Position numbers and translations under genes: made by a program
Shown here: piece by piece, positions 56,085-62,863 of the stretch
Layout of the letters: each line of letters starts with the position of its first letter
How positions within the stretch are numbered: position 1 is the first letter of the stretch
Notes under the pieces: model-generated
Database searches by the model: none
What the model was told of the DNA's origin: nothing
What the model saw: the letters and a program-made list of their open reading frames with translations, nothing else
Source of the DNA: Leptospirillum sp.
Lineage (GTDB): Bacteria > Nitrospirota > Leptospirillia > Leptospirillales > Leptospirillaceae
Reading direction: 5' to 3'
Assembly: GCA_027315205.1 (NCBI GenBank)
Contig: DAHUYM010000003.1
Span: forward strand, 62,001 to 126,000
Length of the DNA stretch: 64,000 bases

Positions 56085-57488
56085 CTATTGGGTTTCGTTT
56101 CGGCTCCCCGGTGGGGAAAGACGCCCCAGGCTGAACCGGTACTGGACCATTTGTATTGCCCAGTCGTACCGGGCCTGGATCAGTTGTTCCCGAGCCTGCC
56201 TCAGTGCCGTCTGGGCATCGATCACATCGATCGATTTCGCCGTTCCAACATGAAACGCCCTTTCAACCAGATTGTCGTTTTCCAAAGCGCTTTCATAGGC
56301 CGTCCGTGCCTCTTTTAACTTCTGACGCGCCTCCCGGACAGAAAGGGCCGACTCCTGTACGTCGGCCGCAACCCTGAGCTTTATTTCCTCGAGTTGGTCG
56401 GAATCGGCGGCAAGCTGAGCCCTAGCGGAATGAATCTGATGTGTGATCAGTCCCCCTTCGAAAATGGGGATCGAAATCGTCCCCCCCACGTTGAACGTGG
56501 AAAAAGGCTGGGCGGGAACATAGGGAATCCCCAGCGCCTGTTCCGGGACCTGAGTCAGAAAATATTGGGCCAGACCGGTCAGTGCGGGGTAGTTCTGCGA
56601 CTTGGCATTCGAGAGAACGGATTCGCTCGTACGTACTGTATCCTTCTGGCTTTTCAAATCCGGACGGTGCTTGTACGCATCGGGAATATCGCGTTTCAGG
56701 TCGATCCTCTGGCGAAAACGTTCCAGTGAGATTTCCCGGGCCACATAATGCGGATTTGCCCGGATGCCGATCGTCTTCGCCAATTCGATCTGGGCCGTCC
56801 GGAAGTCATTGTCCGCCCGGATCCGGTCCAGAAGGGCCGACTCCAGGTTTACTTTCGCCTGTGTCACATCGAGCCGCAACCCCACCCCGGCATCCAGTCG
56901 CGCCCCGGCTTCGGCCAGATGGTTCCTGGCGTCGTGTACGCCCGCGTTTGCCGTAATGAGGCCGTGCTGGGTCATCAGAAGCTTCAGGTACGCCACAGTG
57001 ACATCCCTTGTCAACGACAGAGATTCGAATTTCAGGTCGTCCTTCGCTTTCTTGTCTTTCCAGCGGGCCGTTTTCACCTGGGAGGCGGTCCTGCCAAAAT
57101 CGTAAAGGTTTTGGGAGAGGGTCACCGTGAACTGTTGCAGATCAAAATATTGGTAGCCCGGGAACAGAAAATATCCCAGAAAGCTGTTTCCGTAGATATT
57201 CTGGTACGATGCCGAAAGCTGGGGAAAATAACCGGATCGTGCCTGGAAAACGCCTTCGTGCTGGGCAACCTGCAGGTGGACGAATGTCTTCAGGGCAGGA
57301 CGGCGGGACATGGCATTTTGTATCGCCTCCGATAGTCCGATCGGCGTTCCCGGGAGAATGGCGGATTCGGTTGTTTGACCGGAATCCGCCATTGTCTCTT
57401 CGGCACAGAGAGCCGGACGCAACGGAGCCCCCCCGAGAACATATAGAACGAGCATACCCGTCAAGATTCGACAGAACATGATATTCAT
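56085..57488 (-). CDS. TolC-family outer-membrane efflux protein
   Basis: 467 residues. A signal peptide (ILTGMLVLYVLGGAPLRPALC) precedes two outer-membrane-factor repeats, each with long helices and periplasmic turns (PTAYLKLL-like DVTVAYLKLLMTQHGLI; QEARQKL-like VREARQKLKEARTAYESAL). The proximal PGYQYFDLQQFTVTLSQNLYDFG segment is a typical beta-barrel entry. It is the outer-membrane channel of the adjacent EmrAB pump. ATG overlaps the emrB stop by four bases. Confidence 0.92.
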   Translation of the reverse strand: MNIMFCRILTGMLVLYVLGGAPLRPALCAEETMADSGQTTESAILPGTPIGLSEAIQNAMSRRPALKTFVHLQVAQHEGVFQARSGYFPQLSASYQNIYGNSFLGYFLFPGYQYFDLQQFTVTLSQNLYDFGRTASQVKTARWKDKKAKDDLKFESLSLTRDVTVAYLKLLMTQHGLITANAGVHDARNHLAEAGARLDAGVGLRLDVTQAKVNLESALLDRIRADNDFRTAQIELAKTIGIRANPHYVAREISLERFRQRIDLKRDIPDAYKHRPDLKSQKDTVRTSESVLSNAKSQNYPALTGLAQYFLTQVPEQALGIPYVPAQPFSTFNVGGTISIPIFEGGLITHQIHSARAQLAADSDQLEEIKLRVAADVQESALSVREARQKLKEARTAYESALENDNLVERAFHVGTAKSIDVIDAQTALRQAREQLIQARYDWAIQMVQYRFSLGRLSPPGSRNETQ

Positions 57489-59074
57489 TCTCCGACAACC
57501 CTTTCCCGAGAAGCCGTCGACCCCGTCCGGGGCGAAAGACGGCGCATGAGCAATACGATGGGAATTCCCACAACGGCAAACAATCCCGCATATAAAAATG
57601 TCTGGTTGTAACCGGATATCGAGGCCTGATTGTGAACAATCTTTGAAAGTTCGGCCTGGATCGTGGGGCTTCCTGTCCCCTGAAAAATCCCGTTGTGAAT
57701 CTGGCGTCCGATTTCGGCAAGGGTTTTTTGGACCGAATAGGCGCCTTGGGTAATGTGCGAACGGTACTCCGTCATGAAATAGGTCGTCCGGTGATCAAGG
57801 ATATTCCCGAGGACAGCGACACCGATGGCGCCGCCGACCTGGAGCATGTTGCTCTGGAGCGTCGAAGCAAGGCCAATGTGTTTGGGTTCGACCAGGTTCT
57901 GAGGAAGGCTGGAAAGAAGCGCATTGAGAAGACCCATCGAAAGTCCGAACACAAGCTGGGGGATAAGGATCTGGTAGAAACTCGTCACTTGGGTCAGGAA
58001 GGTGAACATGAACTGTGATAAGGCCAAAACACCGAAGCCGCACACAAGGATCGCCCTTTTTACCGAATCCGACGCCCGCGCGGCATAGTTTCCGACGAGG
58101 GGCATGAAAACACCGGCGACCAGGGAGGCAGGCAATTGAACCATTCCTGCCGCCATGGCCGGAAAATTGTTATATGTCTGCACAAACAGGGGAAGAAGGA
58201 ACATCCGTCCGAAGAGGCTGATCGCCCGGACAAAATTAAGAATCATGATCGCGGTAAAATCCCAGTTCCGGAAAATGCTGATATCGATGATCGGGTATTT
58301 GACCCTGAACGCGGAAAAAAGGTAGATCCAGAAAGAAATGGCACTGACGAGCCAGCATTCGTAAACGAAATGGTCCGTCCACCCCCATCGTTCCCCTTCC
58401 GTCAGAGCCACCAATAGGAAGGCCAGGCACAGACCGAGAGAGGTGAATCCCACGTAATCGAACGGAACGACAGTCTGTTTCGGATCTTTTTTGAGGAACA
58501 GGAACGTCAGTGCAAACGAGAAAATTCCTACGGGAATGTTGACGAAAAAGATTTCCCGCCAACTGTAATTGTCGATCAGATATCCCCCGAGAATGGGTCC
58601 CATAGTCGGAGCCAGGACGATCACGATCCCGAAGAACCCGAACGCTTTCGTCCTTTCGTTCGGGGGAAACGCCTCGGTAAGGATCGTAAACCCCAATGGC
58701 ATCATGAGACCTCCCCCGATCGCCTGCAAAACCCTGAAAACGATCATGACGTTCAAGTTCGGGGACAATCCGCAGAGAAAGGAGGAGAACGTGAAAAGAA
58801 ACGTCGCCGCAAGGTACAGATTCTTGACACCCATGACTGTTCTCGCCCATGAACTGGCGAGAGTGATAACGGCGAAAGCCATGGCATAGGCGGTGATGAC
58901 CCAGCGGATTTCGTCGGTGTTGGTATCGAGACTCCCGACCATATTCGGAAGCCCCACATTGACGATCGTCGTATCGAGAACCGGGAGAAAGAGCCCCACC
59001 ATCACCACGGTGAGAGCCCACCATTTGTAATTCGGCGAATCCCCCACCAGGCTCCCTGAATCGGGCATCACCAT
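57485..59074 (-). CDS. emrB: EmrB/QacA (DHA2) MFS drug exporter
   Basis: 529 residues with 14 predicted membrane helices. FLPVLDTTIVNVGLPNM is the DHA2 motif D1, RVLQAIGGGLMMPLG motif B-like, and VLAPTMGPILGGYLIDNYSWREIFFVNIPVG is the motif C antiporter signature followed by the classic EmrB SWREIFF. It works with the HlyD-type adaptor and TolC-type channel to expel hydrophobic compounds. It overlaps the adaptor by seven bases. Confidence 0.93.
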   Translation of the reverse strand: MVMPDSGSLVGDSPNYKWWALTVVMVGLFLPVLDTTIVNVGLPNMVGSLDTNTDEIRWVITAYAMAFAVITLASSWARTVMGVKNLYLAATFLFTFSSFLCGLSPNLNVMIVFRVLQAIGGGLMMPLGFTILTEAFPPNERTKAFGFFGIVIVLAPTMGPILGGYLIDNYSWREIFFVNIPVGIFSFALTFLFLKKDPKQTVVPFDYVGFTSLGLCLAFLLVALTEGERWGWTDHFVYECWLVSAISFWIYLFSAFRVKYPIIDISIFRNWDFTAIMILNFVRAISLFGRMFLLPLFVQTYNNFPAMAAGMVQLPASLVAGVFMPLVGNYAARASDSVKRAILVCGFGVLALSQFMFTFLTQVTSFYQILIPQLVFGLSMGLLNALLSSLPQNLVEPKHIGLASTLQSNMLQVGGAIGVAVLGNILDHRTTYFMTEYRSHITQGAYSVQKTLAEIGRQIHNGIFQGTGSPTIQAELSKIVHNQASISGYNQTFLYAGLFAVVGIPIVLLMRRLSPRTGSTASRERVVGE

Positions 59075-60021
59075 GGGGACCCCGGCCGGATATGGATCCG
59101 TATCTCTGTGGACATGCCGGGGCGAAGTTTGTACTTGCCGGGGTCGTCTATACGGATCCGGACAGGAATGCGCTGGATCACCTTCACGAACGTGCCAGAG
59201 GCATTTTCCGGGGGAAGGAGGGAAACGGTCGCGGCGGAGACGGGAAGGATACGGTCGACATGTCCATGGAATCGGTGACCGGAAAAGGTGTCCACATCAA
59301 TGTCGACCGGTTGGCCAACCTTCACGTGCCCCATCCGCGTTTCCTTTACCTTGGCCGTAACCCAGATGTCATGTAGGTCAACGACGGAAAGCAAGGCCTG
59401 CCCAGGAGAGATGACTTCCCCGATCTGTGCGATCCTCTCCGCGACCTGCCCGTCGATCGGAGAATGCACCGTATAGTTGAGAGGATGGGTTTCAGTGATT
59501 TCGAGCCGGATCTTGTCGGCTAGCACCACCCGCCGGGATTGCATCAGCCGAGCGGACGTATCGTCCACGGCAGTCTTCAGGTTGTCGAGATCCTGTGCGG
59601 TAATGAACCCTCCTTTTCGAAGCTTGATTCCCCGTTCGTACTGGGTGACCGCGTTCTTGAGCTGAACCTTGAGGGATTCGACTTGGGAAACGGCATTCTG
59701 GAGATCTGTAAAGGCCGCCTCATTGGTCTGGTTGATTTGCTGGAGATTTCGGAATCCGGTCGTGTCGATACGGGCCAGTTCCATACCTTTCCCGACAGGA
59801 TCACCCTGGTTGAAGGGAAGCTCCAGCACCCGTCCCGTGGTATTCGCGGAAATCAAGATGACGTTCCCGTCGACCGCAGAATCCTCGGTGCTTACATAAA
59901 AGGCGTTGTACCGGACATATAACCCGTACACCAAAAGGGTGACCAGGAATCCGGCAAGCGGAACCCATACCTTCGGACTTTTCAAACCGGCGATCCCTTT
60001 CGTTTTTGTTTCGTCCGCCAT
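59068..60021 (-). CDS. emrA: EmrA/HlyD-family membrane-fusion adaptor
   Basis: 317 residues. A single N-terminal membrane anchor (VWVPLAGFLVTLLVYGLYV) is followed by TEDSAVDGNVILISANTTGRVLELPFNQGDPVGKG, the lipoyl half-motif, a coiled-coil hairpin, and YTVHSPIDGQVAERIAQIGEVISPGQALLSVVDL, the second half. It bridges EmrB and TolC in the periplasm. It begins one base after the cytochrome stop. Confidence 0.93.
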   Translation of the reverse strand: MADETKTKGIAGLKSPKVWVPLAGFLVTLLVYGLYVRYNAFYVSTEDSAVDGNVILISANTTGRVLELPFNQGDPVGKGMELARIDTTGFRNLQQINQTNEAAFTDLQNAVSQVESLKVQLKNAVTQYERGIKLRKGGFITAQDLDNLKTAVDDTSARLMQSRRVVLADKIRLEITETHPLNYTVHSPIDGQVAERIAQIGEVISPGQALLSVVDLHDIWVTAKVKETRMGHVKVGQPVDIDVDTFSGHRFHGHVDRILPVSAATVSLLPPENASGTFVKVIQRIPVRIRIDDPGKYKLRPGMSTEIRIHIRPGSPW

Positions 60022-60022
60022 C

Positions 60023-60622
60023 TCACTCCCCCTTTCCCAATTCTTTCACTTCTTTTTTAAAGGCTTCCGGAATAGGATGGGCGATGCGGGCCATATCCCG
60101 TTTGAAATCGAATCCTTTGTACGTCGGAGACGAGGGGTTATGGCAGGTCTTGCATGTGTTTTCCGAAGGTTTCGAGACAAGTCCAGACGCCCGGCTCTTG
60201 ACAGGGTCGATCATCACGCTGAAGTGGGAATAGTCTTCTCCGGGCCCATGACAGGATTCGCACTGGACACCGTCTTTTTTCCGGAATGTCGAGAGGATCT
60301 CCGGAAGTGGAGCCCCGGCGGCCGTCGTATGGCATGAAAGACATCTTTGATCCTGTGTGGGATCGGCAATTCCGAACTTCCGGGCGACTTCGAGGGCTTG
60401 GGGAGACTTCAGGTCTTGATACGCCCGGGCGTGCGGACTTCCACCCCATACCTGGAACTGTTGACCAATCCTGAGGGAGGAGTGGCACACTTCACAGGAC
60501 TCGTCGCCCACATAGCGATGAAGAAAGACGCTGTCGTTCGCATGAGCATGAATAATGCCGAGGCATGCAAAAAAGACAAGCACAGTTAATGAGCTCGCAT
60601 ATAGGATGCGACTAATCTTCAC
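60023..60622 (-). CDS. Periplasmic tetraheme cytochrome c (cytochrome c554-like)
   Basis: 199 residues. A signal peptide (ILYASSLTVLVFFACLGIIHA) directs it to the periplasm. Four CxxCH sites are at residues 43-47, 94-98, 121-125 and 157-161, matching the cytochrome c554/c' family; the GSPHARAYQDL and GVQCESCHGPGEDYSHF segments are typical. The GTG start overlaps the tetR stop, with AAGGAA six bases upstream. The next gene, emrA, begins one base after its stop, so it is clearly within the efflux operon. The electron donor and acceptor are unknown. Confidence 0.92.
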   Translation of the reverse strand: MKISRILYASSLTVLVFFACLGIIHAHANDSVFLHRYVGDESCEVCHSSLRIGQQFQVWGGSPHARAYQDLKSPQALEVARKFGIADPTQDQRCLSCHTTAAGAPLPEILSTFRKKDGVQCESCHGPGEDYSHFSVMIDPVKSRASGLVSKPSENTCKTCHNPSSPTYKGFDFKRDMARIAHPIPEAFKKEVKELGKGE

Positions 60623-61298
60623 GGATGATTCCTTCCTTAGTGGTGGATTTCATTGGAGGGATGGAAAATCCGATCCCTTTGAGAAAATGGGGGATCAGAT
60701 TTTCGAGGAACGTCGTACGGTCGATCGGCATGATTTTTTTTCCGGAAAGGATTTCCTGAAAATGGAAAAAAGCATAGAGAGGACCCATGAAAAAATTGAC
60801 CGCGATAATGGTGTCGTTAATAGGAAGGTCATATCTTTCCTTCCATAAATTCAATATGCCTGCCATCCGGTTGATCTTCAACTCCAGTACGAGTTTCGGA
60901 TAAAGTGGCTCCCCTTCTTCGTCGAGGATTCGGTATTCGCTCACGACCGTCCGCATGACGTCGATGTTTCGATCCATGGACGAAAGTGCAGCCTGTCCCA
61001 GCTCAAACAAAAAAACGGATAGATCGTTCAAGGTGAGACTCTCGTGTGTAAAACGGGGTTCCCATCGGGGAAAAACGAGTTCGCAGGCCGAATCTTCCTG
61101 GAAGCGGGAACGGATGATCTCGAGCAGAAGCGCTTTCTTGCTCGGAAAATAATGGTATATCAAACCTTCCGTGATCCCGGCCCGACGGGCGATCTTCCGG
61201 TTGGTGGTCGCATGATACCCTTCGTCCGCAAAGCACCGAAGTGCCGCATCGAGAATTTCCCGCCGCCTTTGCATCCCTTTATCCAAGACCACGCTCAT
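60612..61298 (-). CDS. TetR-family regulator of the efflux operon
   Basis: 228 residues. The N-terminal helix-turn-helix is typical: RREILDAALRCFADEGYHATTNRKIARRAGITEGLIYHYFPSKKALL. The remaining ~150 residues form the ligand-binding domain. The gene leads tetR-cytochrome-emrA-emrB-tolC. Two matched palindromes upstream are the likely binding sites, so it probably represses its own operon until a ligand binds. ATG 61298 is preferred. Confidence 0.92.
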   Translation of the reverse strand: MSVVLDKGMQRRREILDAALRCFADEGYHATTNRKIARRAGITEGLIYHYFPSKKALLLEIIRSRFQEDSACELVFPRWEPRFTHESLTLNDLSVFLFELGQAALSSMDRNIDVMRTVVSEYRILDEEGEPLYPKLVLELKINRMAGILNLWKERYDLPINDTIIAVNFFMGPLYAFFHFQEILSGKKIMPIDRTTFLENLIPHFLKGIGFSIPPMKSTTKEGIIRED

Positions 61299-61311
61299 AT
61301 TCTCCGGGGTA

Positions 61312-61331
61312 TTAATTGGTTGATCAATTAA
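61312..61331 (-). promoter_or_regulatory. Putative TetR operator 1
   Basis: Inverted repeat TTAATTG-N6-CAATTAA, 14 bases upstream of the tetR ATG, overlapping its 5' leader. The same arms recur at 61408, which strengthens the call. Confidence 0.75.
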
Positions 61332-61407
61332 AACTCTAAATGCCAGGAATCCCGAGGTCAATACGGTGAGTGCAGGATCTGGAAGCTTCCAGAGTAGAGA
61401 ATAGGAG

Positions 61408-61427
61408 TTAATTGATTGACCAATTAA
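61408..61427 (-). promoter_or_regulatory. Putative TetR operator 2
   Basis: Inverted repeat TTAATTG-N6-CAATTAA, 96 bp from operator 1 and immediately downstream of the predicted -10 element, so a bound repressor would cover the transcription start. Confidence 0.75.
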
Positions 61428-61430
61428 CAG

Positions 61431-61458
61431 TGTATCTTTAGGATATTTTTCACGTCAA
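61431..61458 (-). promoter_or_regulatory. Probable promoter of the tetR-efflux operon
   Basis: Minus strand: -35 TTGACG (61453-61458), 16-bp spacer, -10 GATACA (61431-61436). The -10 is weak, but the position just upstream of operator 2 fits a repressible promoter. Confidence 0.45.
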
Positions 61459-61621: not shown

Positions 61622-62863
61622 TCAGACCGCCGACTCGGAGGTTTTCGCCTCCGAACAGGCGCTGCGGGCTTGCCCAGCCCTGAGAATATTCCTTGCGGCA
61701 TTGGCATCGGCGTTCTCCGCATGACCGCAGGCCACGCAGACGAACGCCTCCTGCGTCTTCCGATTTTCCGGAGAAACATGACCGCAGACGAAACAGGTCC
61801 GGCTCGTGTTTCGGGGATCGACCCGGACAAGACACCCTCCCCGTCTCGAAAGCTTGTATTCCAGGAGGGAGAGGAACGTCCCCCATCCCCGGGACAGGAT
61901 GGAGCGGTTCAGGCCGGACTTCTGCCGGACCTTCCGGCCGGGATTCTCCCGGGCGCCCCGGGCGCTTCGGGTCAGGTTCCGGATTTTCAGATCCTCGACA
62001 TACACGACGGCTTGGGTTTCGCCGATCGCCGTCGAGGCCTTGTGGAGAAAATCCAGACGCATGTTCGCGACCCGTTCGTGGGCTCTCGCCACCCGGATCT
62101 TCTGCTTCCGGAAGTTGCGGCTCTTCGGCCCCTTCCGGTATTTCCGGGAGAGTTTTCGTTGCTCCCGGACGAGCTTCTTTTCCGCCCGTTTCAGGGCTTC
62201 GACCCCATCCGGATCCGGGTGGATCCGGGTGCCGTCCGATGTCGTGGCGAAAGAGACGACCCCGAGATCCAATCCGATCACCGGACGGGTCAATGCGACC
62301 GGCTCCGGGATCTCCGTCTCGGTCTGGAGGGAGACGGACCACCGGCCCGCCTTGCGGATCACGGTGGCGTTTTTGAGATCCCCTTCGATCGGCCGGGAGA
62401 CCCGGACCTTGACCCATCCGACCTTCGGGAGGAAGATCCGGGGGAGGACGGTCCGCCCCTCCTGATCCCGGGTCGAGAGATCGAGCTTCACCTGGAGAGG
62501 ATCGGGATAGCGGAGGGAGTCGCCACAGCCCTTTTTCTTGAATCGGGGAAATCGCTTGCTGTTCGTCCGGTCCAGAGCCTCCCAAACCCCCCGGTCGAGG
62601 TTCTTCAAGGTCTGCTGCTGGGGCTGGGCCGGACCGTTGGAGAGAAACCCGTATTCCTCGCTCGACCGCCACAGGGTCAGGAGTCTGGCCAGGTCCCCGT
62701 AGGACAGGAGCGGGATTCCGGCTTCGAGCCGCCTCGTCTGAAGATCGAGGGCCTTGTTCCAGACAAACCGGACGCACCCCGCATGGCGGGACAGGAGCTC
62801 CTCCTGTACGGAAGTCGGAACGAGTCGGAACTTGACGGCCTGGCGGGTTTTCATGTTTTTCAT
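61622..62863 (-). CDS. tnpB: RNA-guided nuclease TnpB
   Basis: 413 residues. The N-terminal helix-turn-helix region is AVKFRLVPTSVQEELLSRHAGCVRFVWNKALDLQ. The RuvC-like catalytic triad is intact: Asp199 (GLDLGV), Glu290 (VYVEDLK) and Asp386 (DANAARN). A zinc ribbon has Cys357/360 and Cys376/379. TnpB cuts DNA near a transposon-specific motif under guide from its own omegaRNA, aiding element retention. ATG 62863 (or 62854) starts the fold; the in-frame reading further upstream shadows host DNA. No frameshift is seen. Confidence 0.93.
   Translation of the reverse strand: MKNMKTRQAVKFRLVPTSVQEELLSRHAGCVRFVWNKALDLQTRRLEAGIPLLSYGDLARLLTLWRSSEEYGFLSNGPAQPQQQTLKNLDRGVWEALDRTNSKRFPRFKKKGCGDSLRYPDPLQVKLDLSTRDQEGRTVLPRIFLPKVGWVKVRVSRPIEGDLKNATVIRKAGRWSVSLQTETEIPEPVALTRPVIGLDLGVVSFATTSDGTRIHPDPDGVEALKRAEKKLVREQRKLSRKYRKGPKSRNFRKQKIRVARAHERVANMRLDFLHKASTAIGETQAVVYVEDLKIRNLTRSARGARENPGRKVRQKSGLNRSILSRGWGTFLSLLEYKLSRRGGCLVRVDPRNTSRTCFVCGHVSPENRKTQEAFVCVACGHAENADANAARNILRAGQARSACSEAKTSESAV

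Follow-up and report, generated by a model that had tools for sequence, protein, structure and literature searches.

What is a tetraheme cytochrome doing in a drug-efflux operon? Tripartite pumps are generally regarded as devices for transport and nothing else. In the iron-oxidising, acid-loving bacteria of the Leptospirillum family a cytochrome is a permanent part of a three-part drug-efflux operon. The whole 64-kb stretch (hereafter the window) carries this operon on its minus strand as five genes in the order tetR, tetraheme c-type cytochrome, emrA, emrB, tolC, from 61298 down to 56085:

60612-61298, minus strand: tetR, TetR-family regulator, 228 aa (TetR_N PF00440, E=7e-21)
60023-60622, minus strand: periplasmic tetraheme c-type cytochrome, c554-like, 199 aa, GTG start (PF13435, four CXXCH)
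59068-60021, minus strand: emrA, HlyD-type periplasmic adaptor, 317 aa (HlyD domains, E=7e-25)
57485-59074, minus strand: emrB, DHA2-family MFS drug:proton antiporter, 529 aa (MFS_1, E=9e-47; TIGR00711)
56085-57488, minus strand: tolC, outer-membrane channel, 467 aa (OEP PF02321, E=2e-44)

The tetR and cytochrome genes overlap by 11 bases, one base separates the cytochrome from emrA, and the emrA/emrB and emrB/tolC junctions are overlaps of 7 and 4 bases. The initial annotation had described five contiguous genes with these junctions, and the coordinates, junctions and Pfam/NCBIfam identities all agree with it; the interval it singled out, 60023-61458, covers the cytochrome, tetR and both promoters (see below) and leaves the rest of the operon, to 56085, outside. 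The start of tetR is an ATG with GGAG upstream. The longest ORF would start at TTG 61361; this start was rejected because the ORF would then run across, and include, promoter P2 and operator O2. Downstream of tolC lies hrcA-grpE-dnaK-dnaJ (recognised by eye from the translations), with its own promoter-like site. Just upstream of the operon promoters the window holds a solitary TnpB/IS605 OrfB gene (61622-62857, minus strand), which was not found in the stretches fetched around the operons of relatives.

The pump itself is of a known type. The emrB product passes the DHA2-family permease model TIGR00711 (efflux_EmrB; 378 bits, cut-off 230), matches the E. coli EmrB structure 8zal (E=3.6e-51) and keeps in the alignment the counterparts of the proton-site residues D29, R109 and Q112; on the basis of these residues it is a predicted proton-coupled drug exporter. 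For the emrA product the best PDB match is the E. coli EmrA structure 8zar (E=2.5e-27) and the best NCBIfam family is EmrA/EmrK (TIGR00998, 172 bits for a cut-off of 391). The tolC product belongs to the TolC-family channels by OEP PF02321 (152 bits, cut-off 22) and scores 186.6 bits with TIGR01844, under its cut-off of 225. As these NCBIfam scores fall under the cut-offs though the best families fit, both proteins are best described as Emr-type rather than as established orthologues of the E. coli proteins.

The regulator of emr in E. coli is the MarR-type EmrR. The Leptospirillum operon has instead a TetR-family regulator at its own predicted operator; it also differs by its internal tolC, by a shorter adaptor (317 aa vs 390) and by the tetraheme cytochrome between the regulator and the pump genes. 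Both systems share an adaptor (probably of EmrA type here too), the DHA2 antiporter, the TolC channel and the proton-site residues (8zal, 8zar; PMC13139468). The E. coli pump is driven by the proton gradient, exports CCCP (an uncoupler), nalidixic acid and nitroxoline among other compounds, and is complete at a TolC:EmrA:EmrB ratio of 3:6:1 with no cytochrome (PMC13139468).

Is the cytochrome controlled together with the pump? Upstream of tetR we find the following sites:

61429-61458, minus strand: promoter-like site P1, TTGACG-18-TACACT, abutting O1 (promoter scan, position)
61407-61428, unstranded: palindromic operator O1, GTTAATTGATTGACCAATTAAC, directly after P1 (genome pattern search)
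61333-61361, minus strand: promoter-like site P2, TTGACC-17-TAGAGT, abutting O2 (scan; same -35/-10/operator layout in relatives)
61311-61332, unstranded: palindromic operator O2, ATTAATTGGTTGATCAATTAAA, where TetR presumably binds across the transcription start (conserved in relatives)

P1 and P2 are supported by position and conservation and not by the scan, because the region scanned yields 4 promoter-like sites against 3.9 in shuffles. A 20-base palindrome pattern allowing at most 2 mismatches occurs only at O1 and O2 in the whole 2.0-Mb genome, and the reversed control gives 0. In relatives the region upstream of tetR reads TTGAC-spacer-TATACT-palindrome of type TTATTGATTGGTYAATCAATTAA, within diverged flanks. 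A strict pattern (at most 1 mismatch) is present at 18 of the 19 inspected loci; at the remaining one, L050, this position is taken by a longer AT-rich palindrome. By pattern search no such operator was found at the loci of second-type cytochromes, described below. The promoter of the regulator gene thus carries a conserved palindromic operator, as would be the case in a TetR-autoregulated operon. Between tetR and the cytochrome the scan found no promoter-like site, the only ones of the operon preceding tetR. With operators at tetR and no promoter before the cytochrome, a single dedicated TetR-autoregulated operon would therefore be the simplest reading. The tight junctions, the promoter-like sites restricted to the front of tetR and an order kept in 20 genomes all point to the single operon first proposed. 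Most relatives have one clear operator; the two tandem promoter-plus-operator units of the window (61311-61458) may reflect a duplication or a double control.

The gene-order search suggested in the initial annotation was carried out on the 21 available genomes of the family, with five genera among the carriers. The cytochrome is present in 20 of the 21, and the order tetR-cytochrome-emrA-emrB-tolC is found in all 20 cytochrome-bearing genomes and all five genera: 17 loci are complete, and the 3 cut by a contig or stretch end are consistent as far as visible. The cytochrome gene follows tetR and precedes emrA in all 20, and tetR is the first gene of every orthologous operon. This arrangement is not due to chance because its order is kept in 19 relatives. 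The 21st genome (64% complete) yielded neither the cytochrome nor a close EmrB match; thus, among the family genomes searched, the pump of this operon (pump 1) was never seen without the cytochrome. Between close pairs the dN/dS of the cytochrome is 0.05-0.20, within the range of the pump parts, which indicates that it is under purifying selection like the pump. The pairwise dN of the cytochrome and of the pump parts are strongly correlated (r=0.96-0.98); such a correlation is expected from common descent and shows joint inheritance, not interaction. In three genomes a second adaptor-MFS pair, without a tolC of its own, lies 67-108 bases behind the operon tolC (L031 3400-6000, L032 13654-16278, L053 13636-16220).

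Outside the family the two partners were found apart. A non-exhaustive scan of 84,980 genomes, based on two peptide patterns, placed at its top 21 family loci, every one with an MFS transporter gene nearby; then comes a gap, followed by cytochromes of at most 46% identity in many phyla. At 59 outside loci no EmrA, EmrB or TolC match was found nearby with family-built profiles. The neighbours are multiheme cytochromes, cytochrome b and Rieske proteins, and porin-like proteins. The c554-like tetraheme subfamily concerned (Bacteroidota, Ignavibacteriota, Scalindua, Myxococcota and others) has about 31-46% identity with the family cytochrome over most of the length, and the heme spacing and the motifs DGVQCESCHG and CHN.ESPT in common with it, but its surroundings at these 59 loci are multiheme and respiratory, not an Emr-type pump. 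As for the pump, a search of 296 genomes of the phylum gave as closest EmrA from beyond the family one (G169, 36% identity) that is accompanied by tetR, tolC and emrB and by no cytochrome. Since the outside cytochromes examined lack the pump and the nearest outside EmrA lacks the cytochrome, the partnership seems to have originated within the Leptospirillum lineage, and the initial impression of an unusual arrangement holds. Acidobacteriota and Planctomycetota have proteins of some 930-1020 aa that combine c554-like domains with 9-10 CXXCH (L104, L113, L119, L120, L124, L134, L138).

A second copy of the cytochrome, next to another EmrB-like transporter, is present in four genomes (G003, G007, G009 and G011). 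In the first three, which belong to one genus, this copy lies 58-87 bases behind another MFS-adaptor-TolC set (pump 2), whose proteins are only 27-39% identical to those of pump 1. In G011 the additional copy comes last in a row that begins with an MFS gene, followed by a prenyltransferase-like and a HEAT-repeat protein (L035 3691-7181, minus strand); the match of the former to the prenyltransferase-toroid type is weak. In the tree the second copies fall inside the single family clade, and those of G003, G007 and G009 form their own clade. Homologues of the pump-2 MFS without an adjacent cytochrome exist in G004 and the source genome (57-65%) and in G019 (about 46%), and the pump-2 adaptor-channel pair also occurs elsewhere in the family without a cytochrome. 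We therefore rejected the second linkage as a proof that MFS pumps need the cytochrome: it is invariant for pump 1, optional for pump 2, and not required by MFS pumps generally. Conservation of the pump without the cytochrome in close relatives, put forward at the outset as the observation that would speak against a link, is thus absent for pump 1 (20/20 carry it) and present for the distant pump 2. The pump-2 locus of the source genome may be broken by the assembly, because its MFS gene sits at a contig end (C4; L157 97-1770) and a fragment of a similar gene starts another contig (C38; L158 3-374).

What kind of cytochrome is it? Its four CXXCH motifs (CEVCH, CLSCH, CESCH and CKTCH) are all invariant in 16 family sequences. 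It belongs to the broad family Cytochrome_C554 (PF13435, E=8e-19, 68.9 bits for a cut-off of 20.8), of which it is the only member found in the source genome, and misses the NCBIfam equivalog NF043010 of Nitrosomonas c554/CycA (41 bits, cut-off 400). The nearest sequence in the PDB, by profile match, is c554 of N. europaea (CycA; 1bvb, 1ft5, 1ft6; E=4e-19). An AlphaFold model built from 65 sequences, without hemes, has a pLDDT of 93, and was preferred to a model from the 16 family sequences (pLDDT 50), which was discarded. With this model Foldseek gives c554 as best PDB match (1ft6 and 1bvb, prob 1.00, with a modest TM-score of 0.45). The protein is thus predicted to be a divergent member of the c554 fold, in keeping with the four-heme c554-like cytochrome first described. 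The gene context differs from that of c554, the hydroxylamine oxidoreductase context being absent at the cytochrome locus; a PF13447 (hydroxylamine oxidoreductase) search of the genome gave no match, and its control also matched nowhere.

For the four hemes, alignment column counts leave only three near-universal candidates as distal ligands: H64, H182 and M137. H64 aligns with H27, a distal heme ligand of c554, while the invariant M137 lies near the place of c554 H102. We infer from these columns that H64 and H182 are the distal ligands of hemes 3 and 4, and M137 or H133 that of heme 1; heme 2 is possibly open. H133 is found in 12/12 first-type and 1/4 second-type sequences, and H35 is common; either could be a ligand filling heme 2. 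H25 is invariant in all 16 family sequences, though not beyond the Leptospirillum family, and adjoins the predicted signal cleavage site. An uncleaved anchor with H25 as ligand and a cleavable signal peptide (cut after IHA) would fit the N-terminus equally. Such invariance is unusual for a signal peptide, and H25 (codon 60548-60550 of the window, minus strand) might coordinate a heme if the protein stays uncleaved.

How may the two partners work together? That cytochrome and pump are a functional unit is well supported, and their fixed operon partnership suggests that export and redox change of a compound are coupled. The reading we favour, tentatively and with a little less than an even chance, is an EmrAB-TolC-type pump under TetR autoregulation, made together with a periplasmic cytochrome of its own that would change the redox state of the exported compound. 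TetR would be released by an inducing compound, probably hydrophobic and redox-active (a weak acid, a quinone or a nitro-aromatic), and EmrB would move this compound over the inner membrane via the proton motive force. The periplasmic cytochrome would exchange electrons with the compound, its radical or a re-entering form, and the altered compound, less able to recross the membrane, would then be exported by EmrA-TolC. As no distal ligand is conserved throughout for heme 2, this may be the reactive heme, the others connecting it with the electron pool of the periplasm. Weak acids of this kind would re-enter easily when the external pH is very low, and modification in the periplasm would make export effective. 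The precise proposal, in which the cytochrome would reduce or oxidise the cargo on its way out through the periplasm and so keep a membrane-permeant toxin from returning at extremely low pH, is by itself on the unlikely side. The two roles initially imagined for the cytochrome appear less likely. Being of c type and having a predicted signal sequence, it matures in the periplasm, and EmrB lies at the inner membrane, so that its chemistry would follow inner-membrane transit, or act on a periplasmic substrate, rather than precede export; and a redox sensor would need a relay to the cytoplasmic TetR, which is not encoded.

We count in favour of redox-coupled efflux the presence of the cytochrome in 20/21 genomes with the order kept in 20, the conserved promoter-operator with none between tetR and the cytochrome, the dN/dS and dN correlation with the pump, and the second copy beside an EmrB-like transporter in four genomes. 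The profile and fold matches to c554 also count, together with OcwA, whose hemes 1-4 align with c554, whose heme 2 is open, and which reduces nitrite and hydroxylamine (PMC7096707). Against it count the E. coli pump, complete without a cytochrome (PMC13139468), the pump-2 transporter and adaptor-channel pair that relatives have without one, the possible filling of heme 2 by H35 or H133, and outside relatives that look like plain electron carriers. Low-potential hemes near ferric iron at very low pH might, moreover, be permanently oxidised. With cytochrome 579 of L. ferriphilum near 680 mV at 40 mM iron (PMC8126622), they would need a separate donor, e.g. quinol or the cargo itself.

Whereas the pump type is known, the fixed partnership with a cytochrome appears undescribed: the literature searched on EmrAB with multiheme cytochromes, or on Leptospirillum HlyD/TetR/cytochrome c, gave nothing. 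MexGHI-OpmD of P. aeruginosa is an RND pump, and its MexG is not a cytochrome. It differs from the Leptospirillum operon also by SoxR control, and resembles it by the efflux of a redox-active small molecule (a phenazine), which in the Leptospirillum operon is the proposed role, and by an extra operon gene, mexG (PMC9272787). If redox-coupled efflux is true, a pump lineage never without its own cytochrome would mean that a single function can comprise both export and electron transfer. This could account for the survival of extreme acidophiles in the face of weak acids leaking back over the membrane, and would give a role to one branch of the large, mostly unassigned class of small tetraheme cytochromes.

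Of the other explanations, the one that survives best, though unlikely, is a parallel defence: the inducer would also yield reactive N/O species, which the cytochrome would remove independently of the pump, e.g. as an NO/hydroxylamine reductase, with shared regulation and no shared substrate. The closest solved relative being c554, and OcwA with its aligned hemes reducing nitrite and hydroxylamine (PMC7096707), such an activity is conceivable. In chloride-adapted L. ferriphilum a flavohemoprotein, a cytochrome c peroxidase and a TolC are more abundant, the latter not known to be that of the operon (PMC9053815). But a parallel defence leaves unexplained the linkage of the cytochrome with this pump, rather than with other stress genes, in 20/20 genomes, and the copy that stands beside a second EmrB-like transporter.

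Distinctly unlikely is a general periplasmic electron carrier, made with the pump to maintain electron flow in cells whose respiration suffers from uncoupler-like toxins. Such a shuttle is in keeping with the multiheme, Rieske-cytochrome b and porin-like clusters of the outside relatives, and c554 is described as an electron-transfer protein (PMC7096707); this sole c554-family protein found in the genome is, however, locked to a dedicated local operator and not to respiratory genes. Less probable still is a fourth pump subunit, which would bind EmrA or EmrB and gate or stabilise the pump by redox state: the tight operon with the pump genes and the recurrent DHA2-type partner are consistent with it, but the E. 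coli complex needs no extra part (PMC13139468) and the literature searched offered no precedent. Finally, a passenger trapped in the operon of the family ancestor and kept by chance is barely credible: all family sequences form one clade, so that a single capture could explain the main linkage, yet protein and gene order persist between genera although synonymous change there has reached or almost reached saturation, purifying selection acts on the cytochrome, and it is linked a second time to another transporter.
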